This document shows positions 6,957 through 60,571 of a stretch of 64,000 nucleotides of DNA, in pieces. Source of the stretch: Phorcus lineatus (lineage: Eukaryota > Mollusca > Gastropoda > Trochida > Trochidae). Location: positions 20,559,645-20,623,644 of the forward strand of contig OV121088.1 of NCBI GenBank assembly GCA_921293015.1. Reading direction: 5' to 3'. A program made the translations under genes and the position numbers. The notes under the pieces were generated by a model. The model was not told the DNA's origin and searched no databases. It saw only the letters and a program-made list of their open reading frames with translations. How positions within the stretch are numbered: the first letter of the stretch is position 1; every line of letters starts with the position of its first letter.

Positions 6957-7948
6957 GGTGAACTTTACATTTGGGTTACAGGTGAACTTTACATTTGGGT
7001 AACATGTAATCTTTACATTTGGGTAACATGTGAACTTTACATTTGGGTAACAGGTGAACTTTACATTTGGGTAACAGGTGAACTTAATTTACATTTGGGT
7101 AACAGGTGAACTTAATTTACATTTGGGTAACAGGTGAACTTTACATTTGGGTAACAGGTGAACTTTACATTTGGGTAACAGGTGAACTTTACATTTGGGT
7201 AACTGGTGAACTTTACATTTGGGTAACTGGTGAACTTTACATTTGGGTAACAGGTGAACTTTACATTTGGGTAACTGGTGAACTTTACATTTGGGTAACT
7301 GGTGAACTTTACATTTGGGTAACTGGTGAACTTTACATTTGGGTAACTGGTGAACTTTACATTTGGGTAACAGGTGAACTTTACATTTGGGTAACTGGTG
7401 AACTTTACATTTGGGTAACAGGTGAACTTTACATTTGGGTAACAGGTGAACTTTACATTTGGGTAACTGGTGTTTTACATTTGGGTAACTGGTGAACTTT
7501 ACATTTGGGTAACAGGTGAACTTTACATTTGGGTAACAGGTGAACTTTACATTTGGGTAACAGGTGAACTTTACATTTGGGTAACATGTGAACTTTACAT
7601 TTGGGTAACATGTAATCTTTACATTTGGGTAACATGTGAACTTTACATTTGGGTAACAGGTGAACTTTACATTTGGGTAACTGGTGAACTTTACATTTGG
7701 GTAACAGGTGAACTTTACATTTGGGTAACAGGTGAACTTTACATTTGGGTAACTGGTGAACTTTACATTTGGGTAACTGGTGAACTTTACATTTGGGTAA
7801 CTGGTGAACTTTACATTTGGGTAACTGGTGAACTTTACATTTGGGTAACTGGTGAACTTTACATTTGGGTAACTGGTGAACTTTACATTTGGGTAACTGG
7901 TGAACTTTACATTTGGGTAACTGGTGAACTTTACATTTGGGTAACAGT
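6957..7948. repeat. 24-bp minisatellite, about 41 copies
   Basis: The unit is GGTGAACTTTACATTTGGGT plus AAC and A or T. Variation is concentrated at one position (CAGGTG, CTGGTG or CATGTG), with two irregular units near 7090-7115 and one shorter unit near 7470. Because 24 is a multiple of three, long frames stay open on both strands (ELYIWVTG on plus, YPNVKFTS on minus). These are repeat artefacts, not credible proteins. Confidence 0.97.
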
Positions 7949-10423: not shown

Positions 10424-10522
10424 CTCAATTCCCGTTCTTTGCATGACAGGTCTTATTCCATTAGGAACAAGGTACAAATTTCCTTTCTTTGGTGGTAGGA
10501 ATGGCAAATCTTTTCCGGTGAT
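10424..10522 (-). CDS. DYSF-like: Ferlin exon j: post-C2 segment (PPKKGNLYLVPNGIRPV)
   Basis: This 99-nt exon has donor gtaaga. It encodes ITGKDLPFLPPKKGNLYLVP then NGIRPVMQRTGIE, as in the ferlin LPP---NLYMVPQGIRPV-Q-TAIE block. The acceptor is set at ...gggtttaag before ATC because that gives phase 0 after exon i and the expected family spacing. An alternative AG 19 bp upstream (10542) would put the reading frame out of phase. The next exon, expected to start with an (E)ILAWGLRNM-like sequence, was not located below 10424. Confidence 0.92.
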
Positions 10523-11178: not shown

Positions 11179-11328
11179 CTGAAAAAGCTCAAATGCAGCG
11201 AGAAGTTCTCCACCCTTCTGCCCCATGCGATCAATATCAAACCACTGCAGCACTGGTGTGCGTGCATCTCCTGGATCCAACTTTACCATGGGCTGTGCTC
11301 GTGTTCGACCAAGGAACTCTGGTTTTCC
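11179..11328 (-). CDS. DYSF-like: Ferlin exon i: end of the C2 domain
   Basis: This 150-nt, phase 0-0 exon has acceptor tacctgcag and donor gtgata. It encodes GKPEFLGRTRAQPMVKLDPG, DARTPVLQWFDIDRMGQKGG and ELLAAFELFQ. It matches the ferlin GxDEFLGR---P-V---W-P--R------GELLA-FEL block. The third loop-3 acidic position is Pro (KPEF against the usual xDEF), although the next Glu is kept. Confidence 0.95.
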
Positions 11329-17894: not shown

Positions 17895-18076
17895 AAAAGT
17901 GTCATGGTCAAAGAGCTCAATGATGATGTCTGGTGGTTGTGACTCAAGACTGCGTGGGTTGCCATACACTTCTATCTCCCCGAAGATGAGAGTCTGGTCC
18001 CAGGTAGGACACAAGGTCTTGTGTACTCGCTCAGTCACCATGCTCTGAGTCAGGAAGGACACCTGGCCAAAGGGAT
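17895..18076 (-). CDS. DYSF-like: Ferlin exon h: core of the C2 domain after DysF
   Basis: This 182-nt exon has acceptor gcaatag and consensus donor gtaagt. It encodes (D)PFGQVSFLTQSMVTERVHK, then TLCPTWDQTLIFGEIEVYGN and PRSLESQPPDIIIELFDHDT, ending in F. The S-DPF loop-1 aspartate, the PTWDQTLIF---E-YG strand and loop-3 DHD are all present, a near-diagnostic ferlin C2 pattern. Confidence 0.97.
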
Positions 18077-19346: not shown

Positions 19347-20700
19347 ATATGAACTGGAATATACAGATAAAAAAACCTTGAATAGAATTCTGCAAATGTT
19401 GCTAGTTTCTACACTTGCTTGAAATAATTAATGTGTTATGCAAATAATTGTTTCGAAAATATTTAAGTAATAAACAGCAGCTTCATAGCTTTCACATTAT
19501 TACAAACTTTATTTATGTTTATATTTACAACTACTTATAACACGAACAGGTCTGATAAAAAATGTCCAAAACACATTTTATATCAATATTTAGGAGATAC
19601 ACGTAAGTATAAATGTTTGAAAATCAACACTGAGTTGATATTTATAAATGTTTGAAAATCAGCACCATATAATCAAATGTAACTAAAGTGCTTGTAAGAA
19701 TGAGTTTATTGTCATAACATACACAGCAAATATAATATAATAAATCCTCATGATGGCAAATCAAAGAGTAGAATATCAGTGATAAAATAAGGTGTTAAAT
19801 ACTTAAAAATGTCTCTCATAGCCACATGCACATAAATCCCACAACTGATGTGTTGCACACACCACAGTTTCAAAAAACCACAAGGATCAGTATCAACTTC
19901 ATTATCACTTTGCACTTCTGATTGACAATGGCACAAAGGAGAATATCCGATGCATAGAGATGGCAGATCATTGGACTTCATCGGGCAGGACTGTCTTACA
20001 TTTGGATGCTATAATAATTAATCATTTATGACTTGCCACAAGACCCTTGTTCATGGACAAAATGCTTGACCTGATCGTTCATGTTCTGTAAACCAACATC
20101 TGGCAATTAATGCTGTGACACGAATTCCAAGGCCAGGGTACAAAGAAGGAATCCTCCACAGAACATGGGGGCACATGAGGCAACTCTTCACAGAAAGTGG
20201 CAGCAGATATGTCAGGAACAGTGGCTGCAGTTATTCAGGAACGATGTGGCAATACAAGTTACTAATGTATTGTGTTTCCTGGGACACTGATCCACTTTGT
20301 TCAAGTTGCTTTTACCGGTGGCACAAAACAAGACCTGGAACTGACGATACGGAAACACCCATGTCTTTCGGATGAAATTCCATTTCAATTTCACAGTGTT
20401 TTCATGCACTTTTAGTGCTCATACTTTTACCAAAACTTCTTCCAAGTGACCAAATGATTGTACTTTTGATTAAAATTAGTTTTCAGTTTCATACCATACT
20501 TCTATGAAGATCACACCTCTGTGAAAAATCAGGGGCTGCATAATTGTTCTTGCTGTGTATATATGTAGAAATTAACATGTGCATCTCCCACTGAATAAGA
20601 GCTAGGTGCTTTCAACAGACGCATACATACGCTCTCACTGTGAGGAACTGCTAAATGGCGGAAGTTTTATGGACGTAAATATGCGTCTCTTGCCTTTGAT
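19347..20700. other. Ferlin intron, nothing recognised
   Basis: AT-rich intronic sequence without a supported feature. Confidence 0.4.
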
Positions 20701-20707
20701 AAACTAA

Positions 20708-20780
20708 GTGATTGATGAAGTGATTGATGAAGTGATTGATGAAGTGAATGATGAAATGAATGATGAAATGAATGATGAGT
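20708..20780. repeat. 12-bp tandem repeat at the exon g donor
   Basis: About six units of GTGATTGATGAA drifting to ATGAATGATGAA. On the transcribed strand this is a TTCATCA-rich tract beginning about 10 nt after the exon g donor. Confidence 0.9.
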
Positions 20781-20789
20781 GGGGAATAC

Positions 20790-20867
20790 CTGACAGTCCT
20801 GTGTCGTCTGCTGCCAACAAGTCACGAGCCTGATAGATGTATGCTCGCAGTTGGTACTTGAATGACC
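20790..20867 (-). CDS. DYSF-like: Ferlin exon g: start of the C2 domain after DysF
   Basis: This 78-nt exon has acceptor ctgcttcag and donor gtattc. After the shared arginine codon it reads SFKYQLRAYIYQARDLLAAD then DTGLS, plus one base. It matches the ferlin YHLRCYMYQARDL---D strand and calcium loop 1. A 12-bp tandem repeat starts about 10 bp beyond the donor. Confidence 0.95.
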
Positions 20868-29589: not shown

Positions 29590-30260
29590 TTTCTTTTAGG
29601 ATGTGGCCTTTGTGGCCCTTAATAGGTACACGAAATTCAGCTATCGAGGCCTTTTGTCTCTGGAGAAAAGACTTAATTGGTTTTAAGGGTGTGACACCTG
29701 TGACCCTTTTTAGAGTCAAATGGTCATCAAATCTATCAATAAAATCCCTATCAGCTACGCGGTCTGTGAAAATAAATCAAAATTTATTTTTATGGCGTAG
29801 TCCCTGTGGCGCTCCATAGGGGTAACAGGGTCACCAAATCTAAAAATTAAACCTTACTTAGAATCCCCATCAGCTACACAAAGTTTTAGCTTTGGAGGTC
29901 GTTTGCTTCTGGAGAAGACAATACGTTTTTAAAATACGTTTTTAGGGAGTGGCCTCTCTGGGGTCATCATGCGGTCTGTGAAAATGTTTGGGTCTTATAG
30001 GTCTCTTGCTCCAAAGAAAATAAATCAAAATTTATTTTTATGGCGTAGTCCCTGTGGCGCTCCATAGGGGTAACAGGGTCACCAAATCTAAAAATTAAAC
30101 CTTACTTAGAATCCCCATCAGCTACACAAAGTTTTAGCTTTGGAGGTCTTTTGCTTCTGGAGAAGACAATACGTTTTTAAAATACGTTTTTAGGGAGTGG
30201 CCTCTCTGGGGTCAGAGGGTCTCCAAATCAATAGATTAGAAACCTCCTTGGTCAAAGAGT
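29590..30260. repeat. Recent ~200-bp tandem duplication in a TGGCC/GGGTCA repeat
   Basis: About 198 bp starting AAAATAAATCAAAATTTATT at 29769 recurs at 30017 (offset 248) with about one difference (GGTCGTTTGC against GGTCTTTTGC). Both lie inside an older repeat rich in GGGTCACCAAATC phrases. Confidence 0.9.
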
Positions 30261-32101: not shown

Positions 32102-32269
32102 CTCAGGTTTGAGACTGAAAAAACAGCTTGCTTTTGAATCTTCAGCCACCATCTTGCGGTGCCATCGGCGCCTGCGAACAAGATCCATTGTTCTCTCCTG
32201 GGAGTGGAACTTCATGTTGAAGAGAGGGGCGTACTCCCAGCCCTCAGCTGCCTTCTGCTTCTGCTTCTC
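32102..32269 (-). CDS. DYSF-like: Ferlin exon e: outer DysFC motif
   Basis: This 168-nt, phase 0-0 exon has donor gtattt. It encodes EKQKQKAAEGWEYAPLFNMK, FHSQERTMDLVRRRRWHRKM and VAEDSKASCFFSLKPE. This is the second GWEY---RRRRW-RKM block, closing the outer DysF domain (dysferlin: EGWEYASLFGWKFH...FRRRRWRRRM). Its acceptor (gatgatgcag) is the end of a 1.1-kb minisatellite, so no ordinary pyrimidine tract is visible. Confidence 0.94.
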
Positions 32270-32271
32270 CT

Positions 32272-33408
32272 GCATCATCAACACCCATACATGACATCAT
32301 CAACACCCATACATGACATCATCAACACCCATACATGACATCATCAACACCATACATGACATCATCAACACCATACATGACATCATCAACACCATACATG
32401 ACATCATCAACACCCATACATGACATCATCAACACCATACATGACATCATCAACACCCATACATGACATCATCAACACCCATACATGACATCATTAACAC
32501 CATACATGACATCAACATCCTACATAACATCATCAACACCATACATGACATCATCATCATACATAACATCATCAACACCCATACATGACATCATCAACAC
32601 CATACATGACATCATCAACACCCATACATGACATCATCAACACCCATACATGACATCATCAACACCCATACATGACATCAACATCATACATAACATCATC
32701 AACACCATACATGACATCATCAACACCCATACATGACATCATCAACACCCATACATGACATCATCAACACCCATACATGACATCATCAACACCCATACAT
32801 GACATCAACATCATACATAACATCATCAACACCATACATGACATCATCAACACCCATACATGACATCATCAACACCCATACATGACATCAACATCATACA
32901 TAACATCATCAACACCATACATGACATCATCAACACCCATACATGACATCATCAACACCCATACATGACATCATCACCATACATGACATCATCAACACCC
33001 ATACATGACATCATCAACACCCATACATGACATCACCAACACCCATACATGACATCATCAACACCCATACATGACATCATCAACACCCATACATGACATC
33101 ATCAACACCATACATGACATCAACAACACCCATACATAACATCAACACCCATACATGACATCAACACCATACATGACGTCATCAACACCATACATGACAT
33201 CATCAACACCCATACATGACATCATCAACACCCATACATAACATCATCAACACCCAAACATGACATCATCAACACCCATACATGACATCATCAACACCAT
33301 ACATGACATCATCAACACCCATACATGACATCATCAACACCCATACATGACATCATCAACACCCATACATGACATCATCAACACCCATACATGACATCAT
33401 CAACATGA
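32272..33408. repeat. 21/22-bp minisatellite, roughly 50 copies, touching the exon e acceptor
   Basis: The unit is CATCATCAACACCCATACAT plus GA, with a 21-bp form lacking one C and shorter forms (CATCAACATCATACATAA) that recur in a higher-order pattern. On the transcribed strand it reads TCATGTATGGGTGTTGATGA and ends in GATGCAG, the acceptor of exon e. Confidence 0.97.
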
Positions 33409-39781: not shown

Positions 39782-39912
39782 CTTTTCCATTTGTTTTTTA
39801 TTGTCCATGACCATGGTTCTAGACCTGACCCAGCGTCTACGTCGACACAGATGGTATGTTTTCTCTACTGGCCCATAGCCACCAATAGTAGCTTCCACGC
39901 AGTACTCCCAGC
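39782..39912 (-). CDS. DYSF-like: Ferlin exon d: DysFC motif, GWEY...RRRRWVR
   Basis: This 131-nt exon has acceptor tgttctag and a weak donor gtgttt. It encodes (G)WEYCVEATIGGYGPVEKT then YHLCRRRRWVRSRTMVMDNK and KQMEK. It carries the inner DysFC signature GWEY----------RRRRW-R. It ends in phase 0. A (TTCTA)n microsatellite on the transcribed strand begins 47 bp before the acceptor, and a 27-bp near-copy of the intron-exon junction occurs about 600 bp downstream in the gene. Confidence 0.93.
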
Positions 39913-39958: not shown

Positions 39959-40061
39959 AATAGAATAGAATAGAATAGAATAGAATAGAATAGAATAGAA
40001 TAGAATAGAATAGAATAGAATAGAATAGAATAGAATAGAATAAAATAAAATAAAATAAAAA
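39959..40061. repeat. (GAATA)n then (AAAAT)n microsatellite
   Basis: About 16 GAATA units followed by AAAAT units, 47 bp 5' of the exon d acceptor on the transcribed strand, where it reads as a TTCTA-rich tract. It directly precedes the first unit of the 40-46 kb array. Confidence 0.97.
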
Positions 40062-51219: not shown

Positions 51220-51322
51220 CTTCTTCATCCACAGCTCGGTTAAGGTCCACTTGCCATTCATCATCCCAGCGCCACCCACTTGGCAACGGAAGATCCTCTT
51301 TAGCAGCACATGGGTCCCCTTT
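51220..51322 (-). CDS. DYSF-like: Ferlin exon c: inner DysF C-terminal segment
   Basis: This 103-nt exon has acceptor gttaacag and donor gtaaaa. It encodes KGDPCAAKEDLPLPSGWRWD then DEWQVDLNRAVDEE, plus one base. The GW-W-DEW--DLNRAVDE string is highly characteristic of type-1 ferlins (dysferlin: [20 protein letters not shown]). Phase 1 at the 3' end is completed by GC of the next exon to give the glycine of GWEY. Confidence 0.95.
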
Positions 51323-56054: not shown

Positions 56055-56172
56055 CACATCTGCCCATGGCCTAGAGGCTGGGCCCCAGTGTCCTCCCGGC
56101 AGGTTGCGTGCCATGCATTCGTAGATGTCCTCCAAAAATACATGGTGTCCTGCGTCCTTGTCAAAGAGCATA
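56055..56172 (-). CDS. DYSF-like: Ferlin exon b: inner DysF N-terminal segment
   Basis: This 118-nt exon has acceptor ttttccag and donor gtcagt. After one base shared with exon a it reads MLFDKDAGHHVFLEDIYECM then ARNLPGGHWGPASRPWADV. Vertebrate ferlins have the comparable [27 protein letters not shown]. The LPGG-W core of the DysF N-terminal motif is intact. Cys and Met (YECMAR) replace the usual ENQTR residues. The exon ends in phase 0, matching exon c. Confidence 0.93.
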
Positions 56173-58997: not shown

Positions 58998-60452
58998 TTT
59001 TACAGGGAGTTATAAGGTAAGGAAGGAGTGATGCTTTACAGGGAGTAATAAGATAAGGAAAGAGTGATTCTTTATAGGGAGTAATAAGGTGAGGAAGGAG
59101 TGATGCTTTACAGGGAGTTATAAGGTGAGGAAGGAGTGATGTATTCCTGGGAGTAATAAGGTGAGGAAGGAGTGATGCTTTACAGGGAGTAATAAGGTGA
59201 GGAAGGAGTGATGCATTACTGGGAGTAATGAGGTGAGGAAGGAGTGATGCTTTACAGGGAGTTATAAGGTGAGGAAGGAGTGATGCATTACTGGGAGTAA
59301 TAAGGTGAGGAAGGAGTGATGCATTACTGGGAGTAATGAGGTGAGGAAGGAGTGATGCTTTACAGGGAGTTATAAGGTGAGGAAGGAGTGATGCTTTACT
59401 TGGAGTAATAAGGTAAAGAAGGAATGATGCATTACTGGGAGTAATAAAGTGAGGAAGGAGTGATGCTTTACTTGGAGTAATAAGGTAAAGAAGGAATGAT
59501 GCATTACTGGGAGTAATAAGGTGAGGAAGGAGTGATGCTTTACAGGGAGTAATAAGGTAAGGAAGGAGTGATGCATTACTGGGAGTAATAAGGTGAGGAA
59601 GGAGTGATGCTTTACAGGGAGTAATAAGTGAGGAAGGAGTGATGCATTACGGGAGTAATAAGATAAGGAAGGAGTGATGCTTTACAGGGAGTAATAAGGT
59701 GAGGAAGGAGTGATGCTTTACAGGGAGTAAGAAGGTGAGGAGGGAGTGATGCATTACTGGGAGTAATAAGGTGAGGAAGGAGTGATGCTTTACAGGGAGT
59801 AATAAGGTAAGGAAGGAATGATGCATTACTGGGAGTAATAAGGTGAGGAAGGAGTGATGCTTTACAGGGAGTAATAAGGTGAGGAAGGAGTGATGCTTTA
59901 CAGGGAGTTATAAGGTGAGGAAGGAGTGATGCTTTACTTGGAGTAATAAGGTGAGGAAGGAGTGATGCTTTACAGGGAGTAATAAGGTGAGGAAGGAGTG
60001 ATGCTTTACAGGGAGTAAGAAGGTGAGGAAGGAGTGATGCTTTACTGGGAGTAATAAGGTGAGGAAGGAGTGATGCTTTACTTGGAGTAATAAGGTGAGG
60101 AAGGAGTGATGCTTTACAGGGAGTAATAAGGTGAGGAAGGAGTGATGCTTTACAGGGAGTAAGAAGGTGAGGAAGGAGTGATGCTTTACTGGGAGTAATA
60201 AGGTGAGGAAGGAGTGATGCTTTACAGGGAGTAATAAGGTGAGGAAGGAGTGATGCTTTACAGGGAGTAATAAGGTGAGAAAGGAGTGATGCATTACTGG
60301 GAGTAATAAGGTGAGGAAGGAGTGATGCTTTACAGGGAGTAATAAGGTGAGGAAGGAGTGATGCTTTACAGGGAGTAAGAAGGTGAGGAAGGAGTGATGC
60401 TTTACAGGGAGTAAGAAGGTGAGGAGGGAGTGATGCATTACTGGGAGTTGTG
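58998..60452. repeat. 36-bp minisatellite, about 40 copies
   Basis: The unit is GGGAGTAATAAGGTGAGGAA then GGAGTGATGCTTTACA. Variants are TTATAAGG, TAAGAAGG, CATTACTG and CTTTACTT. On the transcribed strand it is a pyrimidine-rich SLLPHLITPCKA-coding repeat, since 36 is a multiple of three. It starts about 40 bp inside the intron after ferlin exon a. Confidence 0.97.
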
Positions 60453-60491: not shown

Positions 60492-60571
60492 CTGAGCTCC
60501 GGACTGACATACCAATCACTATCCCACCTCCATCCGCCTGGAGGTTCAAATCCTTCTTTCGGCAGGGAAAC
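60492..60571 (-). CDS. DYSF-like: Ferlin exon a: outer/inner DysF segment
   Basis: This 80-nt exon starts in phase 0 after acceptor ...ttaag and ends with 2 nt before donor gtacaa. It encodes VSLPKEGFEPPGGWRWDSDW followed by YVSPEL. The PPGGW-W---W-VSPE pattern matches the ferlin segment that precedes DKDAGH. The next exon supplies one base to complete a serine codon. A 36-bp minisatellite begins about 40 bp past the donor, and the reading frame continues open into it if the intron is retained. The upstream exon, expected to carry an EVYENQ-like DysF start, was not found in the 3.4 kb to the window end. Confidence 0.9.

Follow-up and report, generated by a model that had tools for sequence, protein, structure and literature searches.

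How is an exon recognized when a tandem repeat, rather than a conventional polypyrimidine tract, fills the sequence upstream of it? This question is raised by a ferlin gene with introns that lies on the minus strand of a 64-kb stretch of Phorcus lineatus DNA (contig OV121088.1; hereafter the window, with positions counted from its first letter), in which a minisatellite stops 3 nt short of an exon encoding part of the DysF region (exon E, Table 1). We asked where the acceptor of this exon lies, which signals the array could supply to it, and what a change in copy number would do to them.

Table 1. Positions of the ferlin exons, the exon E splice signals, and neighboring tandem arrays in the window
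Feature	Position	Strand	Remarks
Exon A	60492–60571	−	Weak match (E 0.95) with plausible splice sites; less sure
Exon B	56055–56172	−	Splice consensus and phase; alignment starts some bases past the exon start
Exon C	51220–51322	−	Protein match with splice consensus and phase
Exon D	39782–39912	−	Precedes exon E; donor GTGTTT; phase-0 join to exon E
Exon E	32102–32269	−	168 nt; second part of DysF region; donor GTATTT follows
Exon G	20790–20867	−	Splice consensus and phase; alignment starts some bases past the exon start
Exon H	17895–18076	−	Protein match with splice consensus and phase
Exon I	11179–11328	−	Protein match with splice consensus and phase
Exon J	ends at 10424	−	Start unsure (guessed)
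Minisatellite	32273–33405	− (transcribed)	Main unit TCATGTATGGGTGTTGATGATG; 53 units of 18–22 nt; from TRF and a split into units
Acceptor CAG	32270–32272	−	AG at 32271–32270; sole intron bases between array and exon E
Best-placed branch-point candidate, TGTTGAT	32299–32305	−	A at 32300, i.e., −31; putative function
Purine-rich exon start	32240–32269	−	80% purine over 30 nt, with 11 GAA/AGA/AAG/GAG triplets; may act as an exonic enhancer
(TTCTA)n array	39959–40057	−	About 20 copies, pyrimidine-rich; ends 46 bases upstream of exon D acceptor
12-bp array	20697–20778		Begins 11 bases past exon G donor
36-bp minisatellite	58999–60448		About 40 copies; begins 43 bases past likely exon A donor

Human dysferlin sequence served as a query in finding the exons. 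Exons G, H, and I, when joined and compared with solved ferlin chains, matched dysferlin (E 2e-51), myoferlin (E 8.8e-51), and otoferlin (E 2.8e-42). The joined peptide of exons D and E aligned with residues 1027–1101 of dysferlin (9b8k) without a gap through the exon junction (E 8.9e-15), and with myoferlin with two one-residue gaps (E 5e-12). Homology to dysferlin and myoferlin across the DysF region and a C2 domain thus identifies the gene as a ferlin. A Pfam search with the D+E peptide, which is short, gave no DysF match; its two matches were both under the cut-off and unrelated. At least one exon is expected between E and G, because the phase-0 end of exon E does not supply the one base that exon G takes from its predecessor; none was located. 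Elsewhere in the window, open frames on the minus strand at 1297–1967 resemble, judged by eye, a pogo/Tigger-like DDE transposase, and positions 29768–30214 hold nearly identical tandem copies of 248 bp (1.8 copies, 99% matches). ARAGORN and Rfam (at gathering scores) gave no match across the 64-kb window.

Exon D ends with AAG/GTGTTT and exon E starts with CAG/GAG, both in phase 0. The acceptor at 32270/32271 is well supported by the sequence, since the D+E peptide matches dysferlin ungapped where the two exons meet; because the linker is variable at this point, an acceptor at AGs a few codons into the exon is possible. Read in the exon E frame, the array has a stop codon nine residues upstream, so the exon cannot extend far in that direction, and a long coding extension through the array was rejected, given 29–39 stops in each of the three frames. 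Exon E is open and has kept the GWEY and RRRRW motifs that match dysferlin and myoferlin, and so has the look of coding sequence on which selection still acts. It is 168 nt long with phase 0-0, so its skipping would stay in frame.

TRF described the array with a period of 22, 53.5 copies, and 91% matches (score 1846). Splitting it at a CATG core yielded 53 units, which fall into 14 types, and a partial unit of 11 nt; 32 units are 22 nt long, 13 are 21 nt, seven are 18 nt, and one is 19 nt, with the commonest 22-mer occurring 28 times and a 21-mer 11 times. Tandem units above about 10 bp qualify it as a minisatellite. Read on the minus strand, it ends with GATGATG at 32273, followed by CAG (32272–32270) and by exon E from 32269. 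The chance that an array would end 4 nt or less from any boundary of the placed exons was P 0.024 for 19 arrays and P 0.004 for the three minisatellites of at least 40 copies, in a test on nine exons (one with a guessed start) of a case singled out because it looked odd.

To see how this acceptor compares within the gene, we measured seven acceptors (B, C, D, E, G, H, and I; A and J were omitted as less sure). They were placed by protein match, splice consensus, and phase, with those of B and G lying beside rather than at aligned residues. Pyrimidines at −20 to −4 numbered 12, 8, 12, 7, 11, 13, and 10 of 17 for B, C, D, E, G, H, and I, respectively; in the same order, the longest stretch of at least 80% pyrimidine at −40 to −4 was 11, 13, 11, 0, 10, 15, and 5 nt, and the AG-free zone was 36, 15, 27, 248, 29, 18, and 41 nt. 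The raw pyrimidine count of exon C is nearly as low as that of exon E, so exon E is set apart by its missing tract and its AG-free zone: it is the only one of the seven without a pyrimidine-rich stretch (no run of at least 5 nt at 80% or more, and no pyrimidine run longer than 2, in −40 to −4) and the only one with an AG-free zone above 41 nt. The initial annotation had placed the array directly before a ferlin DysF-region exon, had seen no separate pyrimidine tract there, and had reasoned that the repeat must itself supply the acceptor context. These points are borne out by the dysferlin match, the three intervening bases, the pyrimidine counts, and the position of the 248-nt AG-free stretch within the array. 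Its remark that no branch region is visible proved incorrect, since nearly every unit carries a candidate motif.

That motif is the branch-point heptamer YNYURAY, in the form used in PMC1431707. It matches the array 51 times (50 TGTTGAT and one TGTTAAT), in 50 of the 53 units and in the partial unit, at a density of 45 per kb versus 6.3 per kb in the rest of the strand and 4.2 expected from the composition of the array. Copies stand at −9, −31, and −53 before exon E, and the TGTTAAT variant is at −225. YNYURAY is absent from the last 70 nt of five of the other six acceptors and, at exon C, matches only at −4; splicing of this gene thus does not depend on the heptamer, and finding it at exon E is weak evidence that it is used. 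The looser yTNAy shows only a 1.7-fold excess in the array (45 vs. 26 per kb for the whole strand). Selection against AG in the array was also considered and was not borne out, because one AG is present (the only internal one, at 32521) and only 12 of 66 single changes to the unit make an AG, which leaves such a comparison low in power; the scarcity of AG may be mere composition.

The explanation that, taken as a whole, we consider probable is that the array has become a buffered acceptor. An intronic minisatellite would have reached the acceptor of exon E and would now form its whole 3′ splice-site region, with the unit at −31 (or −53) as the putative branch point. The site would be a weak acceptor of the AG-dependent type, in which the first step of splicing requires the AG and U2AF35, and it would be recognized through CAG/G and through the first 30 nt of the exon acting as a purine-rich enhancer. 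Downstream of any usable unit in the AG-free zone, the first AG encountered would be the true one, and the array would thereby tolerate gain or loss of repeats. Inclusion of exon E may be incomplete, and its in-frame skipping would cost the protein the second half of its DysF region. Shorter and more degenerate tracts, together with a need for both U2AF subunits, are described for AG-dependent introns (PMC3931810). The exon E acceptor, with its longest pyrimidine run of 2, agrees with such a short and degenerate tract, whereas at the human AG-dependent sites reported there the pyrimidine stretches measured 4 nt or more (PMC3931810). The first 30 nt of the six other exons are 30–67% purine with 0–4 GAA/AGA/AAG/GAG triplets, and a role of the exon E start as an exonic enhancer is possible; alternatively, the lysine/glutamate/glutamine linker encoded there would be enough alone to make the sequence purine-rich.

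The effect of repeat loss on this arrangement was simulated by deleting each possible in-register block of units, one block at a time (1378 deletions with equal weights; deletions only). The last 60 intron bases were identical in 1332 of the 1378 products, and the largest edit distance was 10 (five cases). An AG-free zone of at least 60 nt was kept in 99.7% of the deletions, and just one of the 1378 left no yTNAy at −50 to −18. The acceptor context is mostly unchanged because the array is periodic; that is, it is buffered by geometry against repeat loss. The D–E intron is 7512 nt long, so one 22-nt unit hardly alters its length. The initial annotation had expected a change in copy number to move or alter the splicing environment of the exon, and the simulation mostly does not support this; its suggestion that units could offer decoy branch points fits the density of the heptamer and describes a possible competition from distal units.

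These decoys are central to a reading that we consider unlikely, in which array length varies among individuals and tunes the inclusion of exon E as distal units compete for SF1 and U2. The abundance of heptamer matches would suit it, but the proximal context hardly changes among the simulated deletions, and the unit motif UGUUGAU lies further from the branch-point optimum than UACUAAC. A structured RNA was rejected, the fold of one stretch (32240–32480) being no more stable than its shuffles (z +0.76). For UACUAAC itself, oligonucleotides carrying tandem repeats are reported to delay the splicing of a weak intron in trans through SF1 (PMC3116199). A VNTR in intron 6 of TERT likewise shifts splicing, but that effect is ascribed to G-quadruplexes (PMC11830802), and a G-quadruplex switch was rejected for the present array, in which no two GGG runs are closer than 19 nt and quadruplex patterns with loops up to 12 nt number zero.

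It is rather improbable that exon E is mostly skipped, or is spliced at a slightly downstream AG, the AG adjoining the array having decayed. The lack of a pyrimidine-rich stretch at this acceptor alone among the seven would agree with decay, and the phase would permit in-frame skipping, but the open frame with its conserved motifs points to coding sequence under selection, and the ungapped length match favors an exon start at 32269.

We give little credence to a branch point far up the 248-nt AG-free zone, with the array as the spacer of a regulated exon. AG-free zones of at least 100 nt occur in 838 of 67,334 human exons (PMC1431707), and exons with distant branch points share with exon E a large AG exclusion zone, well over 150 nt in the cases described there; the TGTTAAT variant at −225 could serve as such a site. 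The verified cases, however, have their branch point and a pyrimidine tract toward the far end of the zone (PMC1431707), whereas here no tract is found at the upstream end or elsewhere in the zone, a heptamer already stands at −31 with similar units throughout, and the zone itself follows from a unit free of AG. Also quite unlikely is a self-similar acceptor in which nearly every unit would be a full branch-point module free of AG. The exon would then keep its acceptor at any copy number, the pyrimidine tract would be dispensable in this animal, and titration of branch-point recognition by distal units would set a partial, in-frame inclusion of the DysF exon.

Further arrays of the window are found close to splice sites of the gene (Table 1). 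Within 50 nt of an array we counted four of 16 exon boundaries, exon E included, against a random mean of 0.27 (P 0.00013, eight exons), a pattern noticed post hoc in one gene, at distances chosen after seeing the data and with exon A less sure. For this test, 19 arrays were merged by hand from 27 TRF rows, and the eight exons were placed randomly outside arrays. The same eight exons gave P values of 0.026, 0.003, 0.008, and 0.0007 at 5, 15, 25, and 75 nt, and of 0.0005, 0.002, 0.0007, and 0.009 at 100, 150, 200, and 300 nt, respectively. With nine exons, one of which has a guessed start, P was 0.0001 at 50 nt (exons outside arrays). At 50 nt, a permutation that let exons overlap arrays, a flawed form of the test, yielded P values of 0.14 in its circular and 0.002 in its independent version. 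On the plus strand, the unit of the 58999–60448 array contains TTTACAGG and AAGGTGAGG, which resemble both splice sites; the gene is on the minus strand. A 24-bp minisatellite of 41 copies occupies 6957–7947, with no ferlin exon recognized alongside.

The exon E acceptor offers a natural test of whether an animal 3′ splice site can function without a pyrimidine tract when the branch-point motif is repeated. Contrary to the assumption that splicing depends on repeat length, repeat instability beside a coding exon should here be near harmless by geometry. Among the literature matches listed, judged by title and the start of the abstract, none concerned a minisatellite at a ferlin acceptor, and we do not claim that none is in print. 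Several known systems resemble parts of this arrangement. The tandem UACUAAC repeats of Gomafu are likewise tandem branch-point-like motifs, but they belong to a noncoding RNA, follow the yeast consensus, and were tested in trans, as described in PMC3116199. The repeats of the human IFI6 (6-16) minisatellite give several donor sites (Turri et al., 1995, via PMC4526556); there, too, a minisatellite provides splice signals, although these are donors, whereas the exon E array provides the context of an acceptor, with a single AG next to the exon. Closest in anatomy are the amphioxus mirages of Adh3 and of the globins BflGb6 and BflGb9, which also place a minisatellite-like tandem array at an intron–exon boundary (PMC3087553). 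Regular splicing is reported to be undisturbed in these genes, and the two haplotypes of BflGb6 differ in copy number (PMC3087553). Mirage repeats, by that account, span the boundary, include exon sequence, and in many cases carry AG/GT signals. The exon E array, in contrast, stops at 32273, 3 nt before the exon; its unit is wholly intronic, its common forms lack AG, and CAGG occurs 0 times in it. Collectively, IFI6 and the amphioxus mirages, as described in these sources, indicate that repeats forming splice signals are already known, and the exon E array is a variant of these.
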